A program made the translations under genes and the position numbers. From an uncultured Verrucomicrobiales bacterium (GTDB taxonomy: Bacteria > Verrucomicrobiota > Verrucomicrobiia > Verrucomicrobiales > Akkermansiaceae), in the NCBI GenBank assembly GCA_937934595.1, contig CALGZA010000032.1, positions 1-38,200 of the forward strand: a stretch of 38,200 nucleotides of DNA, given 5' to 3'. Below are positions 3,382 through 37,875 of the stretch, piece by piece (position 1 is the stretch's first letter; the number at the start of each line of letters is the position of its first letter). The notes under the pieces are model-generated. The model did no database searches, had not been told where the DNA came from, and saw only the letters and a program-made list of their open reading frames with translations.

Positions 3382-3434
3382 CAACCAAGCATCAGCTACT
3401 CCATCTAACAAAACCATCAAGAACCCCATTCACC

Positions 3435-6055: not shown

Positions 6056-6073
6056 AGAAACGCCAAATCAAAC

Positions 6074-19025: not shown

Positions 19026-19057
19026 AATAATTGTATTGTTTGTGTTAGTTCTTGCGA

Positions 19058-20236
19058 TTAGCCCAATAAGCCCTTCAGCTCATCAACCTTGTTTGTTTTT
19101 TCCCATGTAAGTGCAGAAAGATTATCCTCACGGCCAAAATGACCATAATTCGTAGTATGATTATAAATAGGTCGTAGCAGATCCAACTGTGTAATAATAT
19201 CCGCTGGCTTGAATGAAAATACATCCTGAATAGCTTTCTCTATCGCCTCTTCATCCACCTGATTCGTCCCAAAAGTATCCACACTCACACTAACTGGATG
19301 TGGATGTCCTATCGCATAAGCCACCTGTAGCTCAGCCTTAGAAGCCAAGCCTGAAGCAACTATGTTCTTAGCTACCCACCTACACATATAAGCAGCTGAG
19401 CGATCCACCTTAGACGGATCTTTACCAGAAAATGCACCACCTCCGTGACGCCCCATCCCACCATAAGTGTCTACGATAATCTTCCTGCCAGTAAGACCAG
19501 CATCTCCCTCAGGACCACCAATCACAAACTGACCAGTAGGATTAATCAACAACTCAGTCTCCTTCGTAATCAATGCAGCCGGTATCACACGCCTAATCAA
19601 ATCCTTCTCTAATATCTCTCTAATCTCCGGAGTCGAAATACTATCCTCATGCATCGTAGAAACGACTACTGCTGTAACATGAGTGGGCTTGCCATCCACA
19701 TACTGCATCGAAACCTGAGTCTTCGAATCAGGCCTCAACCATGTATGTTGTCCAGATTTACGTAAAAGCGTCAGCTCCTTACCCAACTTATGTGACCATG
19801 AAATCGGTGCTGGCATAAGCTCTTTAGTCTCATCACAAGCATAACCAAACATGATCCCCTGATCACCAGCTCCCTGCTCCTCACTATCCTTATGATCCGC
19901 ACCCTCAGCATCCACACCTTGTGCAATATCGGGAGACTGCTGACCTATTAAATTCATGAAAAAGAAACTATCCGCATTAAACTTACACGCTTTATCAGTA
20001 TAACCTATCTCACGTATCGCCTTCTCAACTACTGAGCGACTATCAAAATCTGCATGCGTCGTAATCTCACCAGCTAGCCCCACCACATTATCTTTCACAA
20101 ATGTCTCACACGCCACACGGCTGTTCACATCTTGAGCAAGACACGCATCTAGGATGGCATCAGAAATAGTATCACATACTTTATCAGGGTGTCCCTCAGT
20201 CACAGACTCTGAGGAAAATATAAATGGTCTAGGCAT
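19058..20236 (-). CDS. metK: S-adenosylmethionine synthetase
   Basis: MetK makes S-adenosylmethionine from methionine and ATP in the cytoplasm. The 392-residue protein has all landmarks: [17 protein letters not shown] (14-30), the [12 protein letters not shown] signature (122-133), the glycine-rich phosphate-binding [16 protein letters not shown] (265-280) and [16 protein letters not shown]. The length is normal. It is the first gene of the leftward metK-ahcY pair, so SAM supply and SAH removal are controlled together. The ATG at 20236 lies only 62 bp from the divergent regulator start, leaving no room for a SAM riboswitch leader. Control is therefore expected at the promoter by the divergent SahR-like protein. 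Confidence 0.98.
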
Positions 20237-20258
20237 AATGTTTAATTCAGCTTGCTGT

Positions 20259-20284
20259 TATCAACAAATCTTGATACGTTGATA
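20259..20284. promoter_or_regulatory. Probable operator of the SahR-like regulator
   Basis: In the 62-bp divergent gap, TATCAA (20259-20264) and TTGATA (20271-20276) form a perfect inverted repeat with a 6-bp centre. A further TTGATA (20279-20284) repeats the right arm 8 bp on. Symmetric sites of this size suit a dimeric ArsR-type winged helix. The position would let one protein control metK-ahcY and its own gene. Binding is inferred. Confidence 0.7.
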
Positions 20285-20298
20285 TAACCCAATTTACC

Positions 20299-21216
20299 AT
20301 GCCGTCAATTATTAATTCACTAAAAGTCATCTCAGACCCAACAAGACTTCGCATTCTGAACCTCCTTCATGAACAAGAACTCAGCGTCGCCGACTTGCAG
20401 GAAATACTAAACATGGGCCAGAGCCGTATGTCCACACAGTTATCACAGCTCAAAAACGAAGACCTCACTACTGACCGGCGTGTCGGTAAAAACAATCTCT
20501 ACACAGCAACCATCCCAGAATGCCTCACTTCCATAATCGCAGAAGCCGTCCACGAAATGCCTGAAACCATCCAAGATCAAGCCGCCCTCCAACACCTCCT
20601 CAACAAAAGACAAAACAAATCAAAAGCATACTTTGACGAACTAGCTGGAAAATTCGGCAAACACTACGTCCCAGGCAGATCATGGAAAGCACTCGCTGAA
20701 GCACTTCTTAAAATCCTCAACTACGAAATAGTCGCTGACCTAGGAGCCGGAGAAGGAACCCTATCACAACTTCTCGCTCAGAAAGCAAAAAAAGTCATCG
20801 CCATTGATAGCTCAGAAAAAATGGTAGAATTTGGTACCCAACTCGCCAAAAACCATGACCTACCTAACCTAGAATACAGACTAGGTGACATCTCATCACC
20901 ACCCATCGATGATCAAGCTGTAGACCTCACCATCTTTAGCCAAGCTCTCCACCACGCTGATCGCCCACGTAAAGCACTGCGCGAAGCATTCCGTATCTTA
21001 AAGCCAGGCGGAGTAATAGTCATACTAGATCTCCTTCAGCATAACTTCGAACAAGCTAAAGAACTATATTACGATGTCCATCTCGGCTTCTCAGAAGTAG
21101 AACTATACTCCATGATGGACGATGCTGGATTTAAAGCCATCGACGTAGTAATAGCCGATAAAGAACCAGAAACCCCTCACTTCCAAACCCTCCTCGGTGT
21201 TGCCAGAAAAAGCTAA
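20299..21216 (+). CDS. ArsR-type regulator fused to a SAM-dependent methyltransferase (SahR-like)
   Basis: A 305-residue two-domain protein. Residues 1-75 are an ArsR winged helix: VISDPTRLRILNLLHEQELS, then a recognition helix around MGQSRMSTQLSQLKNE, then the RRVGKNNLY wing. Residues 105-250 are a class I methyltransferase fold with motif I ADLGAGEGT (146-154), the acidic end of strand 2 (D170), ALHHADRP and LKPGG (234-238). No metal-binding Cys pair of classic ArsR is present. This layout matches SahR, a repressor of methionine and SAH-recycling genes described in Proteobacteria, which responds to SAH through its methyltransferase-like pocket. Divergence from metK-ahcY strongly supports the same role. 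An alternative is a true methyltransferase with regulatory side activity. Confidence 0.9.
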   Translation: MPSIINSLKVISDPTRLRILNLLHEQELSVADLQEILNMGQSRMSTQLSQLKNEDLTTDRRVGKNNLYTATIPECLTSIIAEAVHEMPETIQDQAALQHLLNKRQNKSKAYFDELAGKFGKHYVPGRSWKALAEALLKILNYEIVADLGAGEGTLSQLLAQKAKKVIAIDSSEKMVEFGTQLAKNHDLPNLEYRLGDISSPPIDDQAVDLTIFSQALHHADRPRKALREAFRILKPGGVIVILDLLQHNFEQAKELYYDVHLGFSEVELYSMMDDAGFKAIDVVIADKEPETPHFQTLLGVARKS

Positions 21217-21237: not shown

Positions 21238-24200
21238 TTACTTAATACTCTTCAGATACTCCATCATCGCATCAAACTGCTTCTTAGCATCATTGTTAAA
21301 CGCAGGCAGCGGTGACTTATTATCTATCGTATACCTTGGCATCTTAGTAGTCGGAGTGATCCTCTGAGGATTCTCCATCCAGCGGTGATAATAACCAGTC
21401 CGCAAACGACGAGCCACCTGATCAAAATTAATACCCTCAACCTCAAAAGCAGCCGTTGCCTTATCTTTTCCATTCGCATGACATATAGTGCAAGCAAAGC
21501 CACCATCAGCCCCCAGCAGCTTCAACCCCTTTTTCGCCAAATCAACATCCAGCTTCTTAGACGCCGGCAACATAGGAGTCATCCCATGCTGCGCAGCCAA
21601 ACCCTCACTCAATAAAACAGCCCTAGACCTAAACGCAGGCATCCGCATCGCCAACCAAGGTCGCGGACGTCGGTCTAATGTCCCGTCAAGCATCTGTCTA
21701 ACATAATCTGTATGCAGCATCTCACCCACATGCGTTAGTGACGGCCGTGACTGATCCACCTTATGATGCTCATCCACAGGCACACCCTTAGCCAAATGAC
21801 CACTCTGCGAATGAAGCGATTCCAATAATGAAGGCAAATCATCACGCTGGTGACAAGCCACACAGTTCAAAGCCTTAACCTGACGCTGCGCAAAATCATG
21901 ACTAGAAACACTCCTAAAAGTACTAACAGCACCATTCTCGTAATGCTTCCTATATCCCTCTAACAAAACCCTATCTTTAGCCGAAAGATTAAGCACCGGT
22001 GACTTAGCAACAGCTTTATGAGTAGTCGATACACAACCATGTTCAGACCAAGGCTTACTAAAAATCTCCTCAAAGCTCATCAACTTAGCATTCTCATCAG
22101 GCAAACCACTGTGACAAGAAGAACACTGATGCCTTGCTACCAACTTAGCTCCTCTCACCGCATCACCAGCAGGTAACTTCATCGCCTTAGGTGCTTTCCC
22201 CTCAGATTCAGCTCGCAAAAACGCCGCTATCTGCCCAGCCTCATCACCACTCAAACCAAAATCTGGCATCTTAATAGAAGCATGATGTTTATCCGGCTGA
22301 ACCAAAAACGCAGCTAAAGATACCTGGCTATACTTCTCTGAGATACGGTTCAGCGCAACACGCCCAGACTCAGCATCATACCCCTTGTCAGGTAAGCTAT
22401 GACATGCCACACATCCTAACTTATGGAAATGCGCTCCGCCTAATTTAACATCGGCAGCACCTACATTCAACGCCTTCCCCCTCTTAGCCTCTACCTTTAA
22501 TGACGCAAGATAAGCAGCCATATCAGCAGCATCCTTCTTCCCCTCTTTAGTAGAACCATCCACCACAGCCGGCATCGTAGTCCCAGGCTTCACAGTATGA
22601 GGAGAAACCAACCACTGAGCCAACCACTTCTCACTAACACGTGAACCTATACCCACCATATCAGGACCCTTGTCCCCTAACTCAGGAAAATGCAACGCCT
22701 CCTCAGACTTATGACAACTCACACAGTTCTGCTTCGCCATAACATCTCTCCCATGTCGCAATGCCATAAACTTTTTAAGCTCCTCAGTAGACTCATGCTT
22801 GAAATATGAAGACCCCACACTCTGTCTAGAAAACTCAGACCCCTTCCACATCAACCTAACATTCCCAGAACCATCATTCCCTCCCCTATAAACCATCTTA
22901 AATCGATGCTTCCCAGGGTTCAACCTCAATGGACTAGAAACCTTAGCCCCCAGCTTGCCCTTCTCCTCTAATATAACCTCCCCATTAATACTAAGCTTAA
23001 CCTCACCCTCACCATGAAAAGAAAACTCAAACGTATCCCTGTCCTCCAAATCTAAAAAACCTGACCAAGTCGAAATATACGCCTCATTACCTTTCAGCAT
23101 ATCACTAACAGCATCCTTACTAGATGTATACTCAGCTGCCAAACGCGCCACTCGCTGATCTATCTTATCTCCAACCTCTATCGTCTGACGTAATCCAGGA
23201 ACAAGATTCTTAGGCACCGTTGCCCCCTCATCACTTGATCGTAATGTTATCCCATCTTCATGCGCACCAAGCTTATGGACAGTATGATAAATATCACCCG
23301 CAGCCTTACTACCATCAGCAAATTTCAATTTATAAGAAAGGCTCATCTGGTCAGCAGGCTTAATGCTCGGTATCTCCAAAAACACCGTCTTACCATCCTC
23401 CAGCAAAGTACTCTTCACCACCTCCACCTTATCACGCTTCCTATACTTCTGACTCTCCTGCTTAGTTGCCTGCTCCTCAGCCTTTAAATCAGGATTATCA
23501 ATAGAAAAATCTCCAGAGCCATACATCGATGAACGTATATATTTCCATCTCTCTAACTTAAAACTAAATTTATCATTCACTGTCTCAGCATCTAGCCCCT
23601 TCTCAAAACGAATAAAAATACCCTTCTTAGTCACCTCCAAACGATCTGGAATCGTAACTTCACCACCTGTATATCGCACCCTATGGAATGCCTGCTCAGT
23701 CGCCGCATTCGTCTGCCAACCACGGAAACCAAGAGTATACAAAGATCCATCACTCTGGAAACGAGCCCTCATTGCAGATGAATTAAGTCTCACAGGAACT
23801 CGCACCACTCCACCCTGCATCACACCATCTACTTCCTGACGTAAAACCCTGTAAATAGAACTCTTACCATAAGAAAGATGTAGCAACTCCCCAGACTTTA
23901 GTCCCCAGTCCACACCATCAGGAACCCACGCCTGACCACCACCAGAATTATCCACACTCATCGGAAAATAACACAACGGTAAATGCATCTCCTGCCCCTT
24001 AAGAGCATGCGCTGCAGGCTCTACGCCCAAGAACTTATCCTTCTCAGTAAAATAGTTTAACTTACACCGCGGCTGCCAGCTACCCTCATTTTCACCAGTA
24101 GTCATCTCACCATTAGGCCCTATCCCTAAACCACCAGGAGCACGTAAACCAGTCGCCATCACCTCCATCTTCTTACCATCCTTTGATATCTTCATCATCG

Positions 24201-26868
24201 TACCATTATGAGGCAGTATCCTATCAAAACCTCTTCCACCACCCCGCACAGGAGCACCCTTCACAATATAAAAATCTCCATTCTTGTCCGTCTGTAATCC
24301 AAACGTAAATTCATGAAAATTACTCGTCACATAAACGTCATTATTAAAACACTCATACCAATCCGCCTCACCATCACCATCCAAATCATGCAACCGCGTT
24401 ATCTGGTCTCGCCCATTCACATAAACCACATCATTCACTATCTTTAACCCCAGTGGCTCATAAAGACCTGTCGCAAATCTACGCCACCTCACATCACCCC
24501 ACTTACCCTTCAGCCCCTTCACCACCCACACATCACCGTTCCACATACTCAGTGCCGCAGAATCTCCATCAGAAAATAAATCCAAGCCTCCTGGCTTTAT
24601 CTTAGAAAACCATGGATTAACAACAGGTAAACCAATCGTATCAACTGCCCAAGCACCCTTATCATCACCCAAGCTAGCCTGAGCCAAAACCTCATCAGGA
24701 TACAAAGCCTTACCACCACCCTTCGTCAATGAAACCAACTCACGCGGAACAGGAACCGTAGAATCTAACACCTTCTTAACATGATCAGCACTACCCTGCA
24801 CACCACTACTATAAGCTAAACTCAACATAGTAGAATCTCCCTTAGCCGGAATAGTCAAAGTCAAAGCCCCTCCATCAGATTTACCAAACTTCAAACCATC
24901 ACCCTTAACATAAACATAATGATCTTCTACAAATGATAACGGCTTAAGAGCCGGAGCCTTTGAACTATATACATCTACCTCAGAAAACAACGTATGTGAT
25001 CCCCCTCCACTCTTCCCTGAACTACAAACAAAAAGCAACTTATGAAACTTACCTAAAGTCTTCCCCTCAGGGGCAACAACAGCAACTCCATGCTTGCCTC
25101 CAGGACCCATCCCACTCGTATCAAACCTAGTAATCAGCTTCCATCCCCTCCACGCTAACTTCCGCCCCTTATAAGCAGCATCTGCTGTATCCTTAACCGC
25201 ACCATAAATCTCAACCTTCTGCGGAGCTCTCTCCCCAACATGACTAGAATAAACATGAATACGGCTCACATCCTGAAGTTCACCCAAATTCAACTCCAAT
25301 CGCCCAAGTCCCTCTTTCCCTTCAAAAAAGAAACTACGATCAATATCTTTGCCATGTCCCGCACCCAGCCCATCATTAAGTCGCACCGCCACACCCTCCT
25401 CATCTCCACCCTTCTTATGCGTCTGTAAAAACCCCGGGATCACCCTGAAAAAAGTCTTATCATTCTTACTCCTATCCACCGTATCATCAGCAGATGGCCC
25501 TCCCATAGAAAGCTCACTCCAGTCACCATCTGTCTTATCCACAACTACACTCACCTTACCTGGCAAAGCCTCTGGAACCACCTTACCATCATCACGCGAA
25601 GAACTAGAGATCTTAGCAAACGTTCCAGATTCATCAATCTCCACCTTAGCCCCCGCACCATCAGCTACCAGTAAAATTCTATCACTTTTTGACGCAGCCA
25701 AATCCATCTGCCTATGAACCACCGGTAAACCACTCACCACATCACCATAAGGCATCTCTAACACCCTAGAACCATGCACAGAATAATCTAAAATCGTCCT
25801 CCCACCATATCGGAAAAAACCACGAAACCTCCCATGATCAGCATCCAAGTTACCATAACCCTTAATCCGCCTCTTATCTGCAAAAGAACCACTCTTATCC
25901 GCCCACCCAGACTGAAGTGAAGTCTGCATAATCCTCCCACTATCATTCGCCAACCGGTTAATACCACCATGAGCACCAGTCCACGGAGTTCCAGAAAAAT
26001 AAATACCACCACGATGCGCCGAACTCATCCTCAACGTCTCAGTATCAAACAAACCCAACATCGACTCACTAGCAGAAAGCTCTAACAATAAACCTTTAAG
26101 AGCTCCCACCCTCCTCACCCCATCATAATGATCCTCAAAAACATTTGCCCACACAGGACCTATATCCATTTTCTCATACCACTTAGCATTCGGATTCTTC
26201 GCCGCATGATACTTGGCCCAGTCAGCTCGGCTCACACCTAACTTCTCTAACACCTCATCCAGCGTCTGCTTCACATCCCACTCCCTCACAGTCACCTTCC
26301 TAAAACTAACCCTAGAAGTCGGATCGTGGTTCTGTAAACCTATATGACCCTCCTTATCACCCCTACCTCGCTGAGTCGTAAACACATTCACCAGCTCACC
26401 ATTAATCACTATTATGATTTTATCCTCCCAAGTCGTAATCTGATAGCTATTCCACTCACCAGCCTTCTTCAGACTATTATGACTAGGCGCCTGAATGTTA
26501 TAAATAGACCCCGTGTCCTTCTTACCAGCCTTATCTCCACTCAACTGACACTCATAACCCTTCCTTACAGCCACCCATGGATCATTCCCAGGATCAGGGA
26601 AACGAACAAAAATACCAGAATTCCACTTAGGATTAGGAAGCTTAAACTCTACATCAAACGTCGCATTCCCATATGACTTACCTGCATACCACATCATACC
26701 CATCCCACCCTCACTCGTTGCTATATCATTCTCAACAGAAAACTTCCCCGGCCCAGACTGCTTCCACTGCTTATGATCCGCAGGAAATAACTCAACAACC
26801 TCAGACCCAAAACATGAACCGCAAAATATTGCACAGAGAAAAGCCTTAATAAATGTGTTTCTAATCAT
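21238..26868 (-). CDS. Giant secreted protein: DUF1080-like, propeller dehydrogenase-like, PA14-like and five cytochrome c motifs
   Basis: An 1876-residue exported protein with a signal peptide (MIRNTFIKAFLCAIFCGSCFG). In order it has: a DUF1080/concanavalin-like domain (about 25-215; WNSGIFVRFPDPGNDPW, GHIGLQNHD); a DUF6797-like region (about 235-400); a beta-rich middle; a sorbosone/glucose-dehydrogenase-like propeller (about 745-1080; GLRAPGGLGIGPNGEMTTG); a PA14-like module (about 1255-1350; LNPGKHRFKMVYRGG); then five CXXCH haem sites near residues 1382, 1485, 1580, 1668 and 1792. Proteins of this kind are typical of Planctomycetota and Verrucomicrobiota and are linked to periplasmic breakdown of sugars or glycans with electrons passed to haems. 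The substrate is unknown. It converges on the regulator gene with a 21-bp gap. No terminator is obvious. Confidence 0.93.
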   Translation of the reverse strand: MIRNTFIKAFLCAIFCGSCFGSEVVELFPADHKQWKQSGPGKFSVENDIATSEGGMGMMWYAGKSYGNATFDVEFKLPNPKWNSGIFVRFPDPGNDPWVAVRKGYECQLSGDKAGKKDTGSIYNIQAPSHNSLKKAGEWNSYQITTWEDKIIIVINGELVNVFTTQRGRGDKEGHIGLQNHDPTSRVSFRKVTVREWDVKQTLDEVLEKLGVSRADWAKYHAAKNPNAKWYEKMDIGPVWANVFEDHYDGVRRVGALKGLLLELSASESMLGLFDTETLRMSSAHRGGIYFSGTPWTGAHGGINRLANDSGRIMQTSLQSGWADKSGSFADKRRIKGYGNLDADHGRFRGFFRYGGRTILDYSVHGSRVLEMPYGDVVSGLPVVHRQMDLAASKSDRILLVADGAGAKVEIDESGTFAKISSSSRDDGKVVPEALPGKVSVVVDKTDGDWSELSMGGPSADDTVDRSKNDKTFFRVIPGFLQTHKKGGDEEGVAVRLNDGLGAGHGKDIDRSFFFEGKEGLGRLELNLGELQDVSRIHVYSSHVGERAPQKVEIYGAVKDTADAAYKGRKLAWRGWKLITRFDTSGMGPGGKHGVAVVAPEGKTLGKFHKLLFVCSSGKSGGGSHTLFSEVDVYSSKAPALKPLSFVEDHYVYVKGDGLKFGKSDGGALTLTIPAKGDSTMLSLAYSSGVQGSADHVKKVLDSTVPVPRELVSLTKGGGKALYPDEVLAQASLGDDKGAWAVDTIGLPVVNPWFSKIKPGGLDLFSDGDSAALSMWNGDVWVVKGLKGKWGDVRWRRFATGLYEPLGLKIVNDVVYVNGRDQITRLHDLDGDGEADWYECFNNDVYVTSNFHEFTFGLQTDKNGDFYIVKGAPVRGGGRGFDRILPHNGTMMKISKDGKKMEVMATGLRAPGGLGIGPNGEMTTGENEGSWQPRCKLNYFTEKDKFLGVEPAAHALKGQEMHLPLCYFPMSVDNSGGGQAWVPDGVDWGLKSGELLHLSYGKSSIYRVLRQEVDGVMQGGVVRVPVRLNSSAMRARFQSDGSLYTLGFRGWQTNAATEQAFHRVRYTGGEVTIPDRLEVTKKGIFIRFEKGLDAETVNDKFSFKLERWKYIRSSMYGSGDFSIDNPDLKAEEQATKQESQKYRKRDKVEVVKSTLLEDGKTVFLEIPSIKPADQMSLSYKLKFADGSKAAGDIYHTVHKLGAHEDGITLRSSDEGATVPKNLVPGLRQTIEVGDKIDQRVARLAAEYTSSKDAVSDMLKGNEAYISTWSGFLDLEDRDTFEFSFHGEGEVKLSINGEVILEEKGKLGAKVSSPLRLNPGKHRFKMVYRGGNDGSGNVRLMWKGSEFSRQSVGSSYFKHESTEELKKFMALRHGRDVMAKQNCVSCHKSEEALHFPELGDKGPDMVGIGSRVSEKWLAQWLVSPHTVKPGTTMPAVVDGSTKEGKKDAADMAAYLASLKVEAKRGKALNVGAADVKLGGAHFHKLGCVACHSLPDKGYDAESGRVALNRISEKYSQVSLAAFLVQPDKHHASIKMPDFGLSGDEAGQIAAFLRAESEGKAPKAMKLPAGDAVRGAKLVARHQCSSCHSGLPDENAKLMSFEEIFSKPWSEHGCVSTTHKAVAKSPVLNLSAKDRVLLEGYRKHYENGAVSTFRSVSSHDFAQRQVKALNCVACHQRDDLPSLLESLHSQSGHLAKGVPVDEHHKVDQSRPSLTHVGEMLHTDYVRQMLDGTLDRRPRPWLAMRMPAFRSRAVLLSEGLAAQHGMTPMLPASKKLDVDLAKKGLKLLGADGGFACTICHANGKDKATAAFEVEGINFDQVARRLRTGYYHRWMENPQRITPTTKMPRYTIDNKSPLPAFNNDAKKQFDAMMEYLKSIK

Positions 26869-26927: not shown

Positions 26928-28073
26928 TTAATTTGCCTCCACCCTCACCCTCAGACTCTCATACCCCAAAACACGCTTGTAGCCATCCTCATCCTCATAA
27001 TTATTTACAGAATCAATATGCTCTATAAAAGACACCCGCTCACTCATAACCTTCAACACAGTCCGGATAATCAAACGAGCATGATTAGCCCCCAAACAAC
27101 TATGAACCCCACTACCAAAACCAATATGCGGATTCGGCTTACGGTCTATCCTCAGCTCCTCAGGAGAATCAAACACACTCGAATCAAAATTCGCAGACGC
27201 CCAACATAATCCCACCCTCTCATCAGCCTCCAACTCCTCACCATGAACATCCGTCTTCATAGGACACGTCCTGCCAATATGTGTCAAAGGAGACAGAAAA
27301 CGAACAAACTCCTCAGTCGCCGCATTGATCAACTTCGGCTCATCCCGTAACCTCACTAACAACTCAGGATCATTCGCCAAATGACCAATAATAGCCGAAA
27401 CAGAATGTATTATCGTATCTCGCCCACCAGCAAAAACCAAATTAGAAAAACCCAGCATCTCATCACGTGTCAACCCACGCCCATCATACTCAGCACCCAC
27501 CAAAACAGAGAAAAAATCATCACCAGGATCAGCCTCAGCCCTATCTATCTGTGAATGCAGATACTCCTCCAGCTCCTCTCCCCTTGACTTCCCATCATCA
27601 GTATTCCTGAAAACATGAATCCCCCAACTAATAAACAACTCAGCCTCAGACTCAGGAATACCTAATAAATAAGTCAACGCCCTAGACTGCAACGGCAAAG
27701 AAAAATCACGCACAATCTCAGCAGATTCCAACCCAGCTACAACATCAAACAACTCACCGACAAGCCCCTCAACACGCGCCACAAACTCCGGCTGACGCGG
27801 CCGATTAAAAACCGGCTCCACTATCCTCCTATAAGCCTTATGCACAGGCGGATCAGTCTCTATAGGTAGCTGCCTCACACTACGATCACCCTCCTCAGAA
27901 GGAATCGGCACCCGAAACGGTGTATCAGAACTAAAAGTCGTAAAATCCTTAGCTGCTCGTCTCACATCCTTATAGCCCAGTATCATCGGAATACGCTCCT
28001 CACCATAACGAACTGGTAACACACCCCTCTCCTCTCGGGCCTCTCTAAACGGATCAAATGGACATGATGACAT
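26928..28073 (-). CDS. Cytochrome P450
   Basis: A 381-residue soluble bacterial P450, slightly short but complete. It has the C-helix HKAYRR (78-83), the I-helix oxygen-binding AGGRDT (215-220), the K-helix ExxR (E255-R258) and the haem loop GFGSGVHSCLG with the ligand Cys at 326. There is no membrane helix. It lies just upstream of the giant cytochrome gene (59 bp) and downstream of a ferredoxin gene (44 bp), all leftward. The ferredoxin is the likely electron donor; no ferredoxin reductase is in the window. The layout resembles class I P450 systems (P450cam type). The substrate cannot be predicted; a small terpene, fatty acid or steroid-like molecule is possible. Confidence 0.96.
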   Translation of the reverse strand: MSSCPFDPFREAREERGVLPVRYGEERIPMILGYKDVRRAAKDFTTFSSDTPFRVPIPSEEGDRSVRQLPIETDPPVHKAYRRIVEPVFNRPRQPEFVARVEGLVGELFDVVAGLESAEIVRDFSLPLQSRALTYLLGIPESEAELFISWGIHVFRNTDDGKSRGEELEEYLHSQIDRAEADPGDDFFSVLVGAEYDGRGLTRDEMLGFSNLVFAGGRDTIIHSVSAIIGHLANDPELLVRLRDEPKLINAATEEFVRFLSPLTHIGRTCPMKTDVHGEELEADERVGLCWASANFDSSVFDSPEELRIDRKPNPHIGFGSGVHSCLGANHARLIIRTVLKVMSERVSFIEHIDSVNNYEDEDGYKRVLGYESLRVRVEAN

Positions 28074-28117
28074 AGCGTAAATCAGTTAAATAGTTATAAA
28101 TTAAAAATTAAAATAGC

Positions 28118-28429
28118 CTAAGAACCAGGAACCTCCATCACCAAACCATCAACCTCATCAGATACCTCTATCTGACAACACAACCTACTCCTATCACAAA
28201 CCGAATCCTCAAACTCCAATAAATCCATCTCATCCTCACTAGCCTTACCCAGCTTCTCAAGCCACTCAGGCGCCAAATGAACATGACAGCTAGCACAAGC
28301 CCCCACACCACCACAATTACCATCTATCCCCTCCACATCATGCTCAAGAGCCGTCTCCATAACAGTCCCCACAGAACCATCCACCACTACCTCTCGCCCA
28401 CCAGATTCAATAAAAGTAATTTTAGCCAT
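28118..28429 (-). CDS. [2Fe-2S] ferredoxin, putidaredoxin/adrenodoxin type
   Basis: A 103-residue ferredoxin that carries electrons to the adjacent P450. Cluster ligands are C39, C45 and C48 (CGGVGACASCHV) and the second Cys of SRLCCQI (C85), the same pattern as putidaredoxin. It ends MEVPGS and lacks the C-terminal Trp that putidaredoxin uses on P450cam. I chose the ATG at 28429 because MAKITFIESGG is the normal family start; an in-frame GTG at 28441 would add four residues. It is separated from the P450 gene by 44 bp in the same direction, so they are probably cotranscribed. Confidence 0.95.
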   Translation of the reverse strand: MAKITFIESGGREVVVDGSVGTVMETALEHDVEGIDGNCGGVGACASCHVHLAPEWLEKLGKASEDEMDLLEFEDSVCDRSRLCCQIEVSDEVDGLVMEVPGS

Positions 28430-28496
28430 AATATTGCGCACTCAGAGATAATCCAATAACCCACCCAGATCAACCCAAATCAACACACCACCATCA

Positions 28497-30045: not shown

Positions 30046-31266
30046 ATGCGAGGATACTACCAAAACGAAGAAGACTCACCAGAAGAAGACAGCACCACGA
30101 CATTAGAAAACCAATTGCTACATTTCCATACTTCTGACCAGCATGAAAGAGCCATATCCACAGGCACCGAACTACTCGCCATAGATCCCCTTAACGGATG
30201 GGTTCACGCTATAATGGGCCAAGCATACACCAGCCTGGAACAATACAATCATGCGGAAAAACATTTCAAAGCAGCCATAGCTCAAGACCCCGATGACGCA
30301 GATAATTTCACTCAAATTTCCTTCATGGAGTTACAACGTGGAAGAGCAGGAAAGGCAGATGACTATATCAGAAAGTCTATCAGCATGGACCCCACCAGCG
30401 CCTATACTTGGTACATCTTTGGCATACTTTGTATTCATTATGAAGACTTCAATCAGGCTCAATTCTGTGTAGCCAAAATCAGAGAACTCGACCCCAGTAG
30501 CAATAACGCAGAGCAACTGGACGTCATGTCTAAAACAAACATTGAAGGAAAAAACCAATACTCTACAACAGAAAAAATCTCTGAAAACGAGAAACTCCTA
30601 GGAACCGACCCCGAAAATGACTTCGCTCATTATCAACTAGCCAATATTTATCTCCACGAAATCAAAGACTTTGATAAAGCCGAGTTCCACTTCAGAAAAG
30701 CTCTAGAAATTGATCCCATAGACAAGGATTACCAAAAAGGCTTAATCAAATCATGGAGAAAAAGAGACTGGATCCTCAAAACACTATGGATCCCCTATTT
30801 ACCGATCCAATGGGCACTAGACATCTGCGGCTGGGCTAATAAGAAAATATGGCCATATGTATTCATGATATTTATTATGAAATACATTCTCATTGCTGCC
30901 ATCGTAGTAGCACTCATATTCTATTCTATATTCTGGCCAGTAGCTAAACTCTATGAATACATGACACTCGCAGAAATCCATCGTAAAATGGGCGTCTTAA
31001 AAATTTACAGTGGAACCATGGAGCAAATACACAAATGGAAGTTAAGTAAAAGAATGTTCACCATGGCCGGCATCGCATTATTCTACTGGGGCTGCATCGC
31101 ACTTCTAACACCATTAATCATAGATCATGAAGCTGCTAAAATGTCGATCACAGCTATCATCTTCGGTATATTCACCATCATTGTATCGCTCTCGTGGATA
31201 TGGCTAATAATAAACGCCATAAAAAAATCTAAGCGGTCATCTAAAAATAAATCATTAAAAGCATAA
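30046..31266 (+). CDS. Membrane protein with cytosolic TPR domain
   Basis: A 406-residue protein. Residues about 20-240 are TPR-type repeats with good consensus spacing: NGWVHAIMGQAYTSLEQYNHAEKHF, then ISFMELQRGRAGKADDYIRK, and FAHYQLANIYLHEIKDFDKAE. The C-terminal third has about three hydrophobic segments near 266-300, 338-360 and 368-393, ending in a basic tail. There is no signal peptide, so the TPR part is expected in the cytosol. It lies 9 bp ahead of a TPR-AAA ATPase gene, and the pair is almost surely cotranscribed. The natural guess is that this is the membrane receptor or adaptor for that ATPase. The ATG at 30046 has no in-frame alternative downstream of the stop at 29998. The family has no name I recognise. 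Confidence 0.85.
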   Translation: MRGYYQNEEDSPEEDSTTTLENQLLHFHTSDQHERAISTGTELLAIDPLNGWVHAIMGQAYTSLEQYNHAEKHFKAAIAQDPDDADNFTQISFMELQRGRAGKADDYIRKSISMDPTSAYTWYIFGILCIHYEDFNQAQFCVAKIRELDPSSNNAEQLDVMSKTNIEGKNQYSTTEKISENEKLLGTDPENDFAHYQLANIYLHEIKDFDKAEFHFRKALEIDPIDKDYQKGLIKSWRKRDWILKTLWIPYLPIQWALDICGWANKKIWPYVFMIFIMKYILIAAIVVALIFYSIFWPVAKLYEYMTLAEIHRKMGVLKIYSGTMEQIHKWKLSKRMFTMAGIALFYWGCIALLTPLIIDHEAAKMSITAIIFGIFTIIVSLSWIWLIINAIKKSKRSSKNKSLKA

Positions 31267-31275
31267 CAAAAAAAC

Positions 31276-32676
31276 ATGAACAACACCCAAACTATCAAAA
31301 TGCTGCAAGACGCACTCCTAGCTCAACCAGAAAACCATAATCTTAGAGCCCATATCATCCAATTAATGATAGATGACAATGACCTCACTGGCATAGAACA
31401 ACTAACAAACAATCAGATAGACCTTATGAATCTTGGCAACCAATCACTCAGCACAAAACCTGAAATATCAATCAAACTAGCTGAGACTGAACTACTGCAG
31501 AACAAAGCAAATGCCCAAGCCTACATGTTAATAGCAAAAGCCCACAAACTACTTCATAACAATGAACAAGCTCTCAAATTCTATAAAATAGCCGCAGTCA
31601 TTGACGAAAGCCTTGAAAACGTCGAATTCGAAAAACTAGCAGAACACACAACTCCCACTAATCCACACTCAGAACAGACTTCAGACCTATCCAAAGAACC
31701 CACTACACAACCAGAAACAGCAAAGCCCAGCATGCTATCCCATCATGGCGAATCCATTCCAGAACACGAACAAATCATCGATGATGAATTCATTGAAACA
31801 GACCCAGCCCTAGACGCACTTCTCGACCAAAAACTCATCGACTTCAGTGATGTAGGTGGAATGGAGGAACTTAAAGAAAGAATCCGGATGAGTATTATAT
31901 ACCCATTTAAAAACAAAGAACTCTTTAAAAAATTCAAAAAGAAAATAGGCGGAGGAATACTAATGTATGGCCCCCCAGGATGCGGAAAAACACTCATAGC
32001 CAAAGCCACAGCAGGTGAATGTGGAGCGCACTTCATGAATATCTCAATACATGACATCCTCTCAAAATGGATCGGAGAATCAGAGCAACGCGTCCACCAG
32101 TTATTTGAAACAGCAAGACGTAAATCACCAACAATCATATTCATAGATGAAATTGACGCCATGTGTATCAAACGATCAGACGCAGGGCACACAGCATCAC
32201 TAGTAAATTCCTTCCTCACAGAAATAGACGGAGCCACATCTAACAATGAAGACGTTCTCGTCATAGGTGCAACTAACACACCATGGAGAATAGACAGCGC
32301 CTTCAGAAGACCAGGCAGGTTTGATCACGTACTATTCGTCCCCCCACCAGATCCTAGCGCGCGAGAATCTATATTCAACATTGCTCTTCAAGATATACCA
32401 AAAGAAAACATCGATGTCAGAAAACTCGCTAAACTCAGTGACCGCTTCTCAGGCGCCGATATCGCAGCCACCATTGCCGCAGCCAGTGAAGAAGCCATCC
32501 AAGAAATAATGAAAACCGGTAAAGAAATAAAAATCTCCGAAAAAACTCTCCTCAAAGCAGTCAAAAAACACAGACCCACCACACTAGAATGGCTTGAACA
32601 AGCAGCAAACTACGCCAGCTACGCTAACCAATCAGGGCTCTATGATGACCTCGCATCATTTATAAAAAACTCTTAG
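31276..32676 (+). CDS. AAA ATPase (classical clade) with N-terminal TPR domain
   Basis: A 466-residue protein. Residues 1-115 form TPR-like helices, 120-185 are a polar linker, and 188-466 are one AAA module. It has Walker A GPPGCGKT (232-239), pore loop SKWIGESE (263-270), Walker B IIFIDEID (287-294), sensor 1 in GATN (331-334), arginine fingers in FRRPGRFD (343-350) and sensor 2 FSGAD (391-395). The motif set is that of the classical AAA clade (Vps4, katanin, CDC48, FtsH), with an aromatic pore loop for threading substrates. The helical domain, linker and single AAA order is like Vps4. No protease domain is present, so it probably unfolds or pulls apart complexes. Its partner is likely the membrane TPR protein 9 bp upstream. 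The substrate is unknown. Confidence 0.93.
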   Translation: MNNTQTIKMLQDALLAQPENHNLRAHIIQLMIDDNDLTGIEQLTNNQIDLMNLGNQSLSTKPEISIKLAETELLQNKANAQAYMLIAKAHKLLHNNEQALKFYKIAAVIDESLENVEFEKLAEHTTPTNPHSEQTSDLSKEPTTQPETAKPSMLSHHGESIPEHEQIIDDEFIETDPALDALLDQKLIDFSDVGGMEELKERIRMSIIYPFKNKELFKKFKKKIGGGILMYGPPGCGKTLIAKATAGECGAHFMNISIHDILSKWIGESEQRVHQLFETARRKSPTIIFIDEIDAMCIKRSDAGHTASLVNSFLTEIDGATSNNEDVLVIGATNTPWRIDSAFRRPGRFDHVLFVPPPDPSARESIFNIALQDIPKENIDVRKLAKLSDRFSGADIAATIAAASEEAIQEIMKTGKEIKISEKTLLKAVKKHRPTTLEWLEQAANYASYANQSGLYDDLASFIKNS

Positions 32677-32854
32677 CTCAAATAAATCACAAGCCAAACC
32701 AACATAAAAAACCATTTTTATGATTAATATGCTTAACCTATCAACCCCAATGCCTTATTGTAAATAAGATAGAATAGACTCCATCACTCAAATTACCATA
32801 AAAACACCTGCATTGAAAAAATCCAAAATACTACCCAGAGCAAACTCACTCAAC

Positions 32855-34465
32855 ATGCTCACCACAAAAATCATCCTATATAAGCTATCTCTTCTACTTC
32901 TAGGATGCTCAGCAAGCCATCATCACAAGCAAACAGATGCTCAGGTATACCAAATACTTAAAAAAGCTGAAAAACACGTATTCGGAAAATCAAATGACTT
33001 CACGATAAACACCAAATATTCTGGAAAAAAGCTTCTCAAAGTCAACGCACCAGAAGTCCTCAACGAAAGTCAAAATACTAAAACTCTGAACCTGTCCCTT
33101 GACCAAGCACTCAGCTATGCCACCAAGAACAGCAGAGAATACCAGACCCAGAAAGAACGCCTATACCTAGCTGCACTATCACTAACAAGCACACAAAATA
33201 ACTTCAGACCAAATATTTCTAGCAGGGCAAATACGCAGGCAACTAACCAAGCAGATGGTGACATCAGATCTACAGCTAACTTGAACCAAAGTCTAAATCA
33301 AAACCTTACCAATGGAGCTAACTACAGCCTAGCAATCGCAAATGACCTGCTCAGATACTTCACTGGTGACCCAAGAAGGTCGGCAGGCTCAGTCATCTCA
33401 CTAAACATTCTCCAGCCTCTAATTAAAGGACTCGGCAGTAAAATCGCAGCAGAAAACTTAACCCAGTCGAGCCGTAATGTTATCTATGCCATCAGAGACT
33501 ACCACCACTACCAAAACACATTTTCTAAGGATATAGTCATCCAATACCTCAGACTCATGCAGCAAAAAGAATCAGTGAGTAACCAATATAAAAACTACAT
33601 ATCAAGAAAAGAAAATACCGAATACCTAAGAGCAAGATCAGTAGATCGCGCAAGCCCACAAGAAGTAAGCGATTCAGAACAAGGTGAGCTACAAGCCAAA
33701 AACACCTGGATCAACACAAAATCAGCCTACCAATCAGCACTAGATGATTTCAAAATCACCCTCGGAGCTCCAACTAACACCTCGCTTAACCTCTCAGACA
33801 ATGAACTAGACAAACTTGTTAACATAGGCCTCCAGCCCATCAAACTCAATGAAAAACAAGCATTCAACCTAGCCCTCAAAAACAGACTCCCCCTCTTCAA
33901 TGCCATAGACCGCTTTGATGACAGCAAACGGCAAGTTGCCATAGCCGCTGAACAACTAAAGACACAACTTAACTTCCTCGCATCTGCCTCTATCCCATCA
34001 ACCGGAAATAACATCGGAAGATTCAATTTCAACAACCTATCAACCCAAGTCGGTCTAGAACTAAATCTACCCATCAACCGCATCAACGAGCGCAATGACT
34101 ACCGCCGCTCACTCATCAATTTCCAATCTAACATACGCTCATTAAGTCGCACCTTCGATAGCCTGAACAACCTCATGAAAAGACGTATCCGTGAAATCAA
34201 TCAGTTCAAACAAAACTACCAAATCCAACGCAACGCAGTCAAATTAGCAGAACGTCGCGTAGAAGGAAATCGCCTCAGATTCCAAGCAGGCACCGTAATA
34301 TTCAGAAGACTAAGTGAGTCTCAAGACGCACTCATATCAGCACAAAACGCAGTCACAAACGCACTCATAGACTACCAAAATGCAAGGCTTCAGCTATACG
34401 CCGACATAGGCAATTTAAATCCTAATTCCACCAACTACTGGCTAAAAAATAACCCCTCGCGCTAA
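32855..34465 (+). CDS. TolC/NodT-like outer-membrane efflux lipoprotein
   Basis: A 536-residue outer-membrane channel protein. The start MLTTKIILYKLSLLLLGCSASHH is a lipoprotein signal with LLGC as lipobox. I therefore prefer the ATG at 32855 to the TTG at 32813, which would put 14 extra residues before the signal. Two outer-membrane-efflux repeats follow: the first near LNLSLDQALSYATKNSREYQTQ, the second near LNEKQAFNLALKNRLPLFNAIDR. Each is followed by a long coiled-coil hairpin, as in TolC. It lies 10 bp before the HlyD-type gene and forms the outer part of a tripartite exporter with the next three genes. The distance from the AAA gene is about 180 bp, so a separate promoter is possible. 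Confidence 0.88.
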   Translation: MLTTKIILYKLSLLLLGCSASHHHKQTDAQVYQILKKAEKHVFGKSNDFTINTKYSGKKLLKVNAPEVLNESQNTKTLNLSLDQALSYATKNSREYQTQKERLYLAALSLTSTQNNFRPNISSRANTQATNQADGDIRSTANLNQSLNQNLTNGANYSLAIANDLLRYFTGDPRRSAGSVISLNILQPLIKGLGSKIAAENLTQSSRNVIYAIRDYHHYQNTFSKDIVIQYLRLMQQKESVSNQYKNYISRKENTEYLRARSVDRASPQEVSDSEQGELQAKNTWINTKSAYQSALDDFKITLGAPTNTSLNLSDNELDKLVNIGLQPIKLNEKQAFNLALKNRLPLFNAIDRFDDSKRQVAIAAEQLKTQLNFLASASIPSTGNNIGRFNFNNLSTQVGLELNLPINRINERNDYRRSLINFQSNIRSLSRTFDSLNNLMKRRIREINQFKQNYQIQRNAVKLAERRVEGNRLRFQAGTVIFRRLSESQDALISAQNAVTNALIDYQNARLQLYADIGNLNPNSTNYWLKNNPSR

Positions 34466-34475
34466 AAAATTCAAA

Positions 34476-35915
34476 ATGAAATCATCTCAAAAGATAATCT
34501 GGCTCCTCATCATCCTCATAGCAGGCAGCTTCATAGCCTACGGAATTTTTAACAAATTTGTATCTGATCCTCAAAAAAAATACGTATACTACACAGTCAA
34601 AAAAAACGACCTCCACATCTCCATCAAAGAAAAAGGCACACTCAAAGCCATAAACCAGCACAGCATAAAGAACAAACTCAGCGGAAAATCCGTTATCCTA
34701 TCCATCATACCTGAAGGATCATCAGTAAAAAAAGGTCAGCTCCTAGTCGAGCTAGACCCAGCTGAAACAATGAAACAACTAGCGCAAATACAAATAGAAG
34801 TAGAAACCAGTAAATCATCATACATCACTGCTAAAAATGACCTATCCATAGAAGAAAGCACAGTAGCTAGCGAGCAAAGAACATCTCTCCAAGAAACGAA
34901 ATTCGCAGAAATGGACCTCAAAAAATTCATCGAACTCGATAAAAACCAACAAATCAGAGAAGCAGAATCTAAAATAACCACTGAAGAAGAAAGCCTCAGA
35001 CTAGCTCAAGAAAAATTCAGATGGAGCGAAAAACTAACAAAAAAAGGATTCGAAACAAAAAGTCAACTAGACAGAGACAGACTAGAACTCATCAATAGCA
35101 AAAAAAAATTAGACTCAGCTAAAAGTAAACTAATCATGCTCAAGAAATTCGATCTCCCAAAAAAAGAAGAAAAACTAAAATCCGCAGTCGCAGAAGCAAA
35201 TAAGAAAAACAATCGCCTAACCAAACAAGGCGAAAGTAAAATCAGAAGAGCCAAAGGCCAGCGAGACGCTGCCAAAAGAAAGCTAGACTTCAATACAGCC
35301 CAGCTCATCAAGATCAAAGCCCAGCTCAAACACACAAAACTATACGCCCCAGTTGACGGAATCGCTCTATACCCCACTCAAAAATACAACAATACCCCGC
35401 CCCTAAGCATAGGATCCCCAGTCACTAACAACAAAGAAATCATCTACATTCCTGGACTCAACAAGATGAAGGTAGAAATCAAAGTCCCTGAACTACACAT
35501 CAGTAAAATAAAAACAAATCAAGAAGCGCTCATCACTCTAGACTCAATCTCTAATAAACAATACAAAGCCACTGTCTCAAAAGTCAGCCACCTACCAGAC
35601 AGACATAGTTACTGGACCGCTGGCCAAAATAACTACATTACAGAAATAACCATTAACGACTCCATTAGCGGTGTCAAACCATCCATCTCAGCTACAGCAG
35701 AGATCACCATAGCCAACCTCAAAAACGTCATCTCCATTCCCATACAAGCCATCAAAAGCAAAAAAGACAAATACATCTGTTTCATCAAAAAAGGAGATAA
35801 ACATATCGAAACAGAAATCTCATTAGGCTTGATGAACAACAGCCATGTAGAAGTAACATCAGGACTTAAATCAGGTGATACCGTCTTACTCAACATTCCC
35901 GTAACTAACAAATAA
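34476..35915 (+). CDS. HlyD/MacA-type periplasmic adaptor
   Basis: A 479-residue membrane-fusion protein. One N-terminal helix (about 8-25) anchors it, followed by a biotinyl-lipoyl half (SIIPEGSSVKKGQLLVELDP). A long charged coiled-coil hairpin runs from about 85 to 275 and is longer than in MacA. The second lipoyl half has HTKLYAPVDGIALYP. Beta-barrel and membrane-proximal domains follow (VEIKVPELHISKIKTNQEALITLD and ISIPIQAIK). It links the MacB-type transporter to the TolC-like channel. It starts 10 bp after the channel gene and ends 11 bp before the ATPase gene, an operon layout. The transported substrate is unknown. Confidence 0.92.
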   Translation: MKSSQKIIWLLIILIAGSFIAYGIFNKFVSDPQKKYVYYTVKKNDLHISIKEKGTLKAINQHSIKNKLSGKSVILSIIPEGSSVKKGQLLVELDPAETMKQLAQIQIEVETSKSSYITAKNDLSIEESTVASEQRTSLQETKFAEMDLKKFIELDKNQQIREAESKITTEEESLRLAQEKFRWSEKLTKKGFETKSQLDRDRLELINSKKKLDSAKSKLIMLKKFDLPKKEEKLKSAVAEANKKNNRLTKQGESKIRRAKGQRDAAKRKLDFNTAQLIKIKAQLKHTKLYAPVDGIALYPTQKYNNTPPLSIGSPVTNNKEIIYIPGLNKMKVEIKVPELHISKIKTNQEALITLDSISNKQYKATVSKVSHLPDRHSYWTAGQNNYITEITINDSISGVKPSISATAEITIANLKNVISIPIQAIKSKKDKYICFIKKGDKHIETEISLGLMNNSHVEVTSGLKSGDTVLLNIPVTNK

Positions 35916-35926
35916 ATATCCCCCAC

Positions 35927-36628
35927 ATGATAGAGCTAAAAAACATAACCAAAACCTTCCCACTCATAGACCAAGAGATTCATGCTCTCAAAGGAATTAA
36001 CCTAACAATCACAAAAGGATCATTCGTCGCAATCATGGGACCATCCGGGTCAGGTAAATCCACACTCCTAAACATACTCGGATGCCTAGACAGACCTACC
36101 CATGGAGACTACATACTCGGAGACAGTGACGTAGCTCAAATGGATGATAATCAACTATCTGCCCAACGTGGTAAAAAACTAGGCTTCATCTTCCAGTCAT
36201 ACAACCTCATCGCACAGCTCAACGTCATCCAAAATATCCAATTACCCCTCATCTACCAAAATGCCTCGCTAAAAGACAACCTTCCTCGCGCCATAGAACT
36301 CGCCAAACTTGTCGGCCTCCGTGATCGCCTCAGCCATAAGCCAAACCAGCTATCAGGAGGTCAACAGCAACGCGTAGCCATCGCCAGATCACTCATAAAC
36401 GACCCCCTCATCATACTCGCAGATGAACCCACAGGCAACCTAGACTCCAAAACAGAAGAGGAAATCATGCAGGTTCTCATCAAACTCAACAAAAACGGTA
36501 AAACCATCGTCATCGTTACTCACGATGAAGCAGTCGCAAAGCACACAGACAGAATCATCCACATGAAAGACGGCATCATCAACCGCGATGAAACCAGCAA
36601 AAACAAACAAAACCAAGCTGTGAAATGA
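35927..36628 (+). CDS. MacB/LolD-type ABC transporter ATPase
   Basis: A 233-residue ABC ATPase of normal size with all motifs: Walker A GPSGSGKS (38-45), Q-loop GFIFQSYN, signature LSGGQQQR (142-149), Walker B LIILADE with the catalytic Glu at 167, and the switch His in THDEAVAKHTD. It is of the MacB/LolD subclass, which drives type VII ABC mechanotransmission rather than direct transport through the membrane. In E. coli MacB, ATPase and permease are one chain; here they are separate genes. Its stop overlaps the permease start by 4 bases (ATGA), so the two are translationally coupled. Confidence 0.96.
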   Translation: MIELKNITKTFPLIDQEIHALKGINLTITKGSFVAIMGPSGSGKSTLLNILGCLDRPTHGDYILGDSDVAQMDDNQLSAQRGKKLGFIFQSYNLIAQLNVIQNIQLPLIYQNASLKDNLPRAIELAKLVGLRDRLSHKPNQLSGGQQQRVAIARSLINDPLIILADEPTGNLDSKTEEEIMQVLIKLNKNGKTIVIVTHDEAVAKHTDRIIHMKDGIINRDETSKNKQNQAVK

Positions 36629-37875
36629 AGATAAGCTCCATCACTCACACCATCAAACTAGGAATCAAAAGCCTCCTACTCAGAAAACTACGCTCAGCTC
36701 TAACCATCACAGGCATCATATTTGGCGTATGCTCAGTCATAACTATGCTCGCAGTCGGCGAAGGCGCAGCATTCGAAGCACAAGAACGTATCAAAAACCT
36801 CGGAAGCAACAACATCATCATCGAAAGCATCAAACCACAGAAAAAAACAAACACCACGCAAGAAAACATGCTCGTATACGGACTTAAACGTAAAGACGTA
36901 GAAATCCTTAAAAAAGCTATCCCAAAAATTCAAAACATCACCTCAAAACGATTATTAGATGACAAAATAAGCTCCACTATAGCATCTGAAACAGCACAAA
37001 TAACCGGAACCCAAGCAGACCTCGCAAACATAGAAAACATAACCTTACACAGCGGCAGGTTTATATCAGATCTAGACTACAACCAAAACCATACCGTCTG
37101 TGTCATTAGCAAAAACCTCGCTGACAAACTCTTCGCCTACTCAGACCCCATAAATGCCAGTGTTAAAATAAAAAAAATACATTTCACCGTTATAGGCGTA
37201 ACCACTGATAAAGGAAATACAGACTACAAAGATACAAACCACACTGTTCATATACCTCTTACCACTATGGTATCCCGCTATGGAGATCAAATCTTTAATC
37301 TCACAGCTGGAAGCATGAAATTAGAAAGCATTGAACTACACAAAATCATAATCCAAATGAATACCCCTGATGACGTACTCATATCAGAACCTCAAATCAC
37401 GCACATACTAAACCACCACCATAACAAAAAAGACTTCAAAGTCATCGTCCCACTCCAACTCCTCAGACAAGCCAAAGAAACTCAAAAAATGTTCAGCATC
37501 GTCTTAGGATCTATCGCAGCCATTTCACTCATAGTCGGAGGAATCGGCATCATGAACATCATGCTCGCCACAGTTAGCGAACGAACCAGAGAAATAGGCA
37601 TAAGAAGAGCCCTCGGAGCAAAAAAAAGAGACATCATCTCTCAATTTATGACAGAAGCCGTCCTCCTATCATTAACAGGAGGCATCATAGGCATAATCTT
37701 AGGCATAGCTATGCCACATATCATCTCTAACTTCACTTCAATAAAAGCCATCGTCTCCCCAGCCTCCGTCATATTAGCATTCATCGTCTCCGCTCTAACA
37801 GGCATCATTTTCGGTATCTACCCAGCTGCTAAATCAGCTCAGTTAGACCCCGTAGAAGCTCTAAGAAACGAGTAA
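36625..37875 (+). CDS. MacB-type ABC permease (FtsX family)
   Basis: A 416-residue permease with four membrane helices: one near 20-42, then a large periplasmic domain (about 50-280), then three near 286-312, 340-362 and 372-402. The conserved FtsX stretch GGIGIMNIMLATVSERTREI is intact after helix 2, and the protein ends in the usual LDPVEALRNE. The layout is that of MacB minus its ATPase domain. With the ATPase, the HlyD-type adaptor and the TolC-like channel it makes a full exporter for peptides, antibiotics or lipoproteins. It is the last gene of the operon; no terminator is obvious after 37875. Confidence 0.95.
   Translation: MKISSITHTIKLGIKSLLLRKLRSALTITGIIFGVCSVITMLAVGEGAAFEAQERIKNLGSNNIIIESIKPQKKTNTTQENMLVYGLKRKDVEILKKAIPKIQNITSKRLLDDKISSTIASETAQITGTQADLANIENITLHSGRFISDLDYNQNHTVCVISKNLADKLFAYSDPINASVKIKKIHFTVIGVTTDKGNTDYKDTNHTVHIPLTTMVSRYGDQIFNLTAGSMKLESIELHKIIIQMNTPDDVLISEPQITHILNHHHNKKDFKVIVPLQLLRQAKETQKMFSIVLGSIAAISLIVGGIGIMNIMLATVSERTREIGIRRALGAKKRDIISQFMTEAVLLSLTGGIIGIILGIAMPHIISNFTSIKAIVSPASVILAFIVSALTGIIFGIYPAAKSAQLDPVEALRNE

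Follow-up and report, generated by a model that had tools for sequence, protein, structure and literature searches.

A membrane TPR protein and a Cdc48-like TPR-AAA ATPase form a recurrent bacterial gene pair that appears independent of the MacAB-TolC-like exporter beside it

The stretch of DNA analysed here, referred to as the window, is the whole 38,200-base contig CALGZA010000032.1 of an uncultured Verrucomicrobiales bacterium (G000:C32; assembly GCA_937934595.1, 3.15 Mb in 123 contigs, 95.9% complete). Near its right end it carries six genes in series. The first two, which code for a membrane protein with tetratricopeptide repeats (TPRs) and for an AAA ATPase, are the subject of this work, while the other four code for an exporter. 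A preliminary description of this DNA had listed six rightward genes, and all of them were recovered as open reading frames (ORFs) on the plus strand, at the same coordinates and with the same domains, from the ORF list, Pfam and NCBIfam. The features are as follows.

30046..31266, plus strand: membrane TPR protein, 406 amino acids (ORF, Pfam TPR, hydropathy, AlphaFold2 model)
31276..32676, plus strand: TPR-AAA ATPase, 466 amino acids (ORF, Pfam AAA and AAA_lid_3, model, alignment)
32677..32854, no strand: gap of 178 bp separating the pair from the exporter (consensus scan, start-site choice)
32855..34465, alternative TTG start at 32813, plus strand: TolC-like outer-membrane efflux lipoprotein of the exporter module (Pfam OEP)
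34476..35915, plus strand: HlyD/MacA-type periplasmic adaptor of the exporter module (Pfam HlyD_3)
35927..36628, plus strand: MacB-type ABC ATPase subunit of the exporter module (Pfam ABC_tran)
36625..37875, plus strand: MacB-type permease of the exporter module (Pfam MacB_PCD and FtsX)

The spacings from the first gene to the sixth are 9, 178, 10, 11 and -4 bp. The second value is counted to the ATG at 32855 and becomes 136 bp if the TTG at 32813 is used; the ATG, which was also the start given previously, is favoured by a lipobox-like LLLGC and by the N-termini of relatives. Neighbouring exporter genes overlap or are separated by at most 11 bp, 9 bp lie between the two genes of the pair, and the exporter ends 325 bp short of the contig end. 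A consensus scan of 32677-32854 found no promoter-like or terminator-like site above threshold, and hence neither the terminator nor the strong promoter that might have been expected between separate operons. This null scan is uninformative: it neither joins nor separates the two gene groups.

The predicted structure of the ATPase (mean predicted local distance difference test score, pLDDT, 85.2; predicted template modelling score, pTM, 0.62) consists of TPR-like helices at residues 3-124, a disordered linker at approximately 127-176, one Cdc48-D2-like AAA module and two C-terminal helices. No Pfam TPR match was found in the ATPase of the window itself, but TPR_19 is matched by 52 of the 57 aligned members of the family, and together with the helical N-domain in the model this upholds the label TPR-AAA. 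The residues K238, T239, D291, E292, N334, R345 and R348 are invariant in all 57 members, so that the Walker A and B motifs, sensor 1 and the arginine fingers are kept throughout. The pore-loop position 265 is Trp in 47 members and Tyr in the other 10, and the second position of this loop is Ile, Leu, Met or Val in 56 of the 57. A C-terminal signature formed by W439, N451, G454, Y456 and D457 is likewise present in 57/57. Among solved structures, Cdc48/p97 is closest in sequence; the top score belongs to its D2 ring, at 272.6 bits for that domain in the best chain. A fold search also placed p97/Cdc48 closest. The NCBIfam CDC48 model (TIGR01243) was matched with 229.7 bits against a cut-off of 802.65, the ATPase aligning to positions 449-709 of 733, and FtsH_fam with 190 bits against a cut-off of 600. 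No membrane helix is predicted in the ATPase of the window. No protease domain was found among its 10 Pfam families or among the 25 families listed, of 40, for the 57 members.

The partner protein has about six TPRs (residues ~12-240) followed by a helical membrane domain, with membrane helices predicted from hydropathy at 273-291, 341-359 and 371-389. Its AlphaFold2 model (mean pLDDT 86.8) shows a TPR solenoid and membrane helices, the latter with lower confidence. Fold searches with the whole protein gave generic TPR proteins among the matches listed, and none of the Pfam families shown corresponds to the membrane domain. The TPR side is presumed to face the cytosol, since the protein shows no evident signal peptide and the ATPase looks cytosolic.

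The two genes had been regarded as a coupled pair, and this is borne out by comparison with other loci. Besides the window, 112 ATPase loci were collected at a profile score of at least 300 bits and deduplicated; they include the low-scoring paralogues L097-L100, and they extend at least 3 kb on both sides in 85 cases and at least 5 kb on both sides in 76. The counts for the pair and for the exporter are derived from stop-to-stop frames and profile searches; simple ORF calling misses genes in GC-rich loci. A partner, defined as a TPR-profile match with at least two predicted membrane helices, lies within 1.5 kb of the ATPase in 97 of the 113 loci, the window included. It is downstream on the same strand in 86, upstream on the same strand in nine and on the opposite strand in two. 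Of the 16 partnerless loci, seven have a contig edge within 900 bp; the other nine do not. The distances among the ATPases and among the TPR proteins are correlated (r 0.909 over 45 loci, a value reached by 0 of 500 shuffles, uncorrected for shared ancestry).

Among the best 80 of 311 confirmed matches, the pair occurs in 29 loci of Verrucomicrobiota, 28 of Bacteroidota, seven of Planctomycetota, three of Fibrobacterota, one of Calditrichota and one metagenome-assembled genome (MAG) filed as Cyanobacteriota; the remaining loci are at edges (six) or lack the pair (five). A plasmid search with the ATPase gave 13 records at E<=1e-40, from Streptomyces (8), Nonomuraea (1), Actinomyces (1) and haloarchaea (3), with 36-48% identity among the 12 matches listed. 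In the three records examined, two from Streptomyces and one from Actinomyces oris, a TPR-profile protein with 2-4 predicted membrane helices follows the ATPase with a 4-bp overlap. In the Streptomyces ATPases the pore-loop motif is retained, as is most of the signature at the C-terminus. Seven phyla thus hold the pair, counting Actinomycetota and the MAG filed as Cyanobacteriota. Matches to the ATPase at E<=1e-40 were found in 176 of the 386 genomes of the order. This is an upper figure, because in one genus the matches, near 1e-41, probably belong to another AAA family.

In a tree of 57 ATPases the window form falls in a branch of nine Verrucomicrobiota rows with support 100/100. The TPR gene comes first in eight of these rows, and no TPR neighbour was found for the ninth (L111); in the remaining 48 rows, which come from six phyla, the gene order is reversed wherever a partner was found. 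In this tree, which has only a midpoint root and in which the row of the window is unusual in letter composition and sits on a long terminal branch, the form with the TPR gene first belongs to a clade confined to Verrucomicrobiota.

A second arrangement of the same kind is present in this genome. Here a different AAA protein, of 552 residues (G000:C25, L028), is preceded by a relative of the TPR membrane protein for which three membrane helices are predicted. This AAA protein (L028 8760-10418) has its Walker motifs intact, and no Pfam family matches the ~300 residues at its N-terminus. The same two genes were found in the congeners G011, in G009 and in G004, where the AAA gene is cut by the contig end, which makes five genomes with G000 and G002. 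In G002 (L022 100-6654), three tandem TPR membrane proteins, a Cdc48-like ATPase and the 552-residue AAA protein lie in one series, which is a tandem expansion of the module. This second pairing supports the TPR membrane protein as a partner of AAA motors.

The competence of the motor, its single ring, the lack of a protease domain, the TPR N-domain and the membrane TPR partner favour the reading that the first two genes probably code for a stand-alone, membrane-tethered AAA unfoldase or segregase. The ATPase would assemble as a homohexamer, and its TPR N-domain would dock onto the TPR solenoid that the membrane protein exposes to the cytosol. The membrane partner would in this way bring the ring to the inner membrane and present membrane or membrane-associated substrates, which may then be unfolded, extracted or remodelled by ATP-driven threading past the Trp/Tyr pore loops. 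A more specific proposal can be put forward only tentatively, namely that the pair is a bacterial machine for membrane-protein dislocation, in which a single-ring Cdc48-D2-like motor works on a dedicated membrane TPR receptor. Such a machine would be the counterpart in mechanism of PEX26-Pex1/6, would occur in several phyla and goes under no family name that was found. The earlier view that no described system corresponds to the pair still stands: no pair-specific family model was matched in Pfam or in NCBIfam (for the TPR proteins, the latter search covered the window's own only). No literature on the pair was found, in a search that misses most subscription journals and is therefore weak evidence of absence.

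Several observations weigh against the reading as a stand-alone membrane-tethered unfoldase. The conserved catalytic residues would mark an active AAA protein and not the identity of its substrate. The number of predicted membrane helices varies, from three in the window to as many as six in relatives, and the topology is predicted only. The low-scoring paralogues L097-L100 account for three of the nine internal ATPase loci without a partner, and the remaining one of these four lies at a contig edge. The Actinomyces oris ATPase departs from the pore-loop pattern and from the C-terminal signature, having Asp, by eye, at the place of N451. The family is patchy, with 6 of 115 genomes positive at E<=1e-110 in a phylum sample of 62 genera that includes the genome studied here. 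Finally, five of 12 genomes of the genus have both the exporter and any TPR homologue (E<=1e-8), where about four would be expected by chance, seven genomes having each.

The pair might instead serve a single narrow client as its dedicated chaperone or assembly factor, comparable with CbbX, EccA or SpoVK, the membrane TPR protein being the docking site of that client. The absence of a protease domain, the TPR N-domain and the single AAA ring are all compatible with such a role, and there is precedent in the accessible text of PMC10659427, where dedicated AAA chaperones are described, among them EccA, which bears TPRs. However, the profile ranking places the AAA module nearest to CDC48 and then to PAN, with EccA far below, and no client gene recurs widely in the neighbourhood. 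We therefore consider this role unlikely, although it deserves to be kept in mind.

The possibility that the pair is an anti-phage or other conflict system was suggested by PADLOC matches of the ATPase to IetA and TRIP13, both of which are AAA proteins, and by the patchy distribution. The matches, however, are confined to the AAA part, and NCBIfam NF042959 (IetA) was matched with 110 bits against a cut-off of 510. IetAS includes a protease partner, whereas no such partner is found here, and the TPR protein has no PADLOC match at 1e-5. Assignment to a defence system was rejected on the restriction of the matches to the AAA part, and a conflict role appears improbable.

The last alternative concerns the exporter. 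The preliminary description had taken the last four genes for a complete exporter, and their OEP, HlyD_3, ABC_tran and MacB_PCD plus FtsX domains agree with this. An adaptor search over 195 genomes of the family gave 21 positives at E<=1e-30, the genome studied here included. Of the 20 other adaptor loci, 18 were read and two weaker ones (G297, G274) were omitted; all 18 have the four genes in identical order. An outer-membrane protein, an adaptor, an ABC ATPase and a MacB permease are thus found in one operon, and genes 3-6 resemble MacAB-TolC in having TolC-like, MacA-like and MacB-like parts. The ATPase and the permease are here on separate genes, while the NCBIfam MacB model is a single chain of 648 residues.

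It had also been proposed that the pair serves the exporter beside it, by regulating, recycling or loading it or by preparing its cargo. The two modules lie on the same strand 178 bp apart with no terminator or strong promoter found between them, one other genome (G002) holds both, though on separate contigs, and the co-occurrence in the genus noted above is slightly over the chance value. However, the cassette occurs away from exporters: none of the 112 other cassette loci has the exporter, and none of the 18 other exporter loci has the cassette, 14 of these having more than 2 kb of upstream sequence (L206, L214, L218 and L219 do not). At E<=1e-4, neither the TPR protein nor the ATPase has a match in those 18 loci except in L204, where a sequence downstream of the exporter and on the opposite strand matches the ATPase with 124 bits; it is taken to be another AAA protein. 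Lone exporter-part matches occur in four of the 112 cassette loci, namely a permease of 33 bits in L031, an adaptor of 40 bits in L139, a permease of 24 bits in L174 and two adaptor matches of 49 and 94 bits in L170; no outer-membrane-protein match was found in any of the 112. Within the genus, the pair is present in G006 without an adaptor match at 1e-30, the exporter is present in G004, G007, G008 and G009 without a match of this ATPase at 1e-40, and G003 has the exporter with only a 3.5e-41 ATPase match. To our knowledge a TolC-type outer membrane is as a rule absent from Actinomycetota, in which the pair also occurs, so that a role in a tripartite exporter cannot be general. The proposed link is therefore unsupported, and a role of the pair as exporter accessory, highly improbable in our judgement, was rejected on the neighbourhood data in both directions. 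The best reading is that the six genes are two independent modules and that the exporter is a separate operon which lies beside the pair in this lineage.

The possibility of a third conserved partner was also considered and rejected. Within 6 kb no further recurrent partner was found, and among the first 45 clusters none exceeds 10 of 113 loci beyond the pair and its shadows. After the pair, the biggest clusters on the same strand comprise 21 and 12 loci, and 21/21 and 14/16 of their respective frames overlap genes of the pair. The clusters are antisense or frame shadows or mostly genus-level sets, for example in Lacinutrix/Psychroserpens, Chitinophaga and Ferruginibacter.

Other genes of the window were noted. 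SahH, MetK and an ArsR-methyltransferase fusion are coded at 17595-21216, ~9 kb upstream of the pair, and the same genes lie directly upstream of a TPR/ATPase pair in G043 (L020 4764-8855). A functional link to this block was rejected, as it is absent from every other cassette locus searched (E<=1e-15); its presence near the pair only in the window and G043 reads as a shared chromosomal place and not as function. MoxR AAA, DUF58, BatA-like and VWA genes form a series at 2389-8590. Near the pair in two other loci there is also a MoxR homologue, at a distance of ~4 kb in L020 (G043) and of ~2 kb in L158. The product of a gene at 21238-26868 is 1876 residues long and combines a 3-keto-disaccharide hydrolase domain with DUF6797 and a cytochrome c domain; its PA14 match falls just under the cut-off. 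A cytochrome P450 and an adjacent 2Fe-2S ferredoxin are both coded on the minus strand at 26928-28441.

Accounts of quality control in bacterial membranes centre mostly on FtsH, which is membrane-bound and carries a protease, and on a few other proteases. If the reading of the pair as a membrane-tethered unfoldase is right, a conserved Cdc48-like motor that has a membrane receptor of its own but no protease, and that extends from Bacteroidota to Actinomycetota, would suggest that bacteria can carry out extraction without degradation. The pair is present in the culturable genera Chitinophaga, Hymenobacter and Streptomyces and is thus amenable to testing. A false lead has also been removed, in that the adjacent exporter is probably not its partner.

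It is useful to compare the pair with known AAA systems. Pex1/Pex6 has two different AAA subunits and forms a double ring. In the available portion of PMC8172628, this motor is brought to the peroxisome membrane by the anchored PEX26, Pex15 or APEM9 for the extraction of clients, and the combination of an AAA motor with a dedicated membrane-anchored partner would be shared with the arrangement proposed here. The Pex partner is tail-anchored, however, and its likeness to the TPR partner is drawn from description. Msp1/ATAD1 may be compared as a single-ring AAA protein working at a membrane (PMC9273213, in the part available). It differs in that Msp1 is itself membrane-anchored, according to the accessible text of PMC12793716, while the ATPase of the pair has no predicted membrane helix, and in that its pore loop 1 is given as Trp-Tyr in the same part of PMC9273213, while Ile, Leu, Met or Val takes the second position in 56 of 57 members here. 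The LapB (YciM)-FtsH system of E. coli offers a further parallel: in the available text of PMC8745692, a cytosolic TPR protein anchored in the inner membrane presents a client to an AAA enzyme, as the TPR protein of the pair might do. LapB is anchored N-terminally and has a rubredoxin domain, neither of which is seen in the TPR protein of the pair, and the ATPase of the pair differs from FtsH in having no predicted membrane helix and no protease domain. PEX26-Pex1/6, Msp1/ATAD1 and LapB-FtsH are to be understood as analogies and not as memberships.

Cpa, an actinobacterial Cdc48-like protein, is likewise a bacterial relative of Cdc48, but in the accessible part of PMC6017811 it is described as a proteasome interactor, and the comparison is by description only. 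The nearest AAA module by both sequence and fold is that of Cdc48/p97 (VCP), the D2 ring ranking first by sequence, and with it the ATPase shares the Walker A and B motifs, the arginine fingers and the aromatic pore-loop position. In contrast to the two tandem rings of Cdc48/p97, the ATPase of the pair has one AAA module in 466 amino acids and hence a single ring; it scores below the CDC48 cut-off and is distinguished by its TPR N-domain, its own C-terminal signature and its membrane TPR partner.

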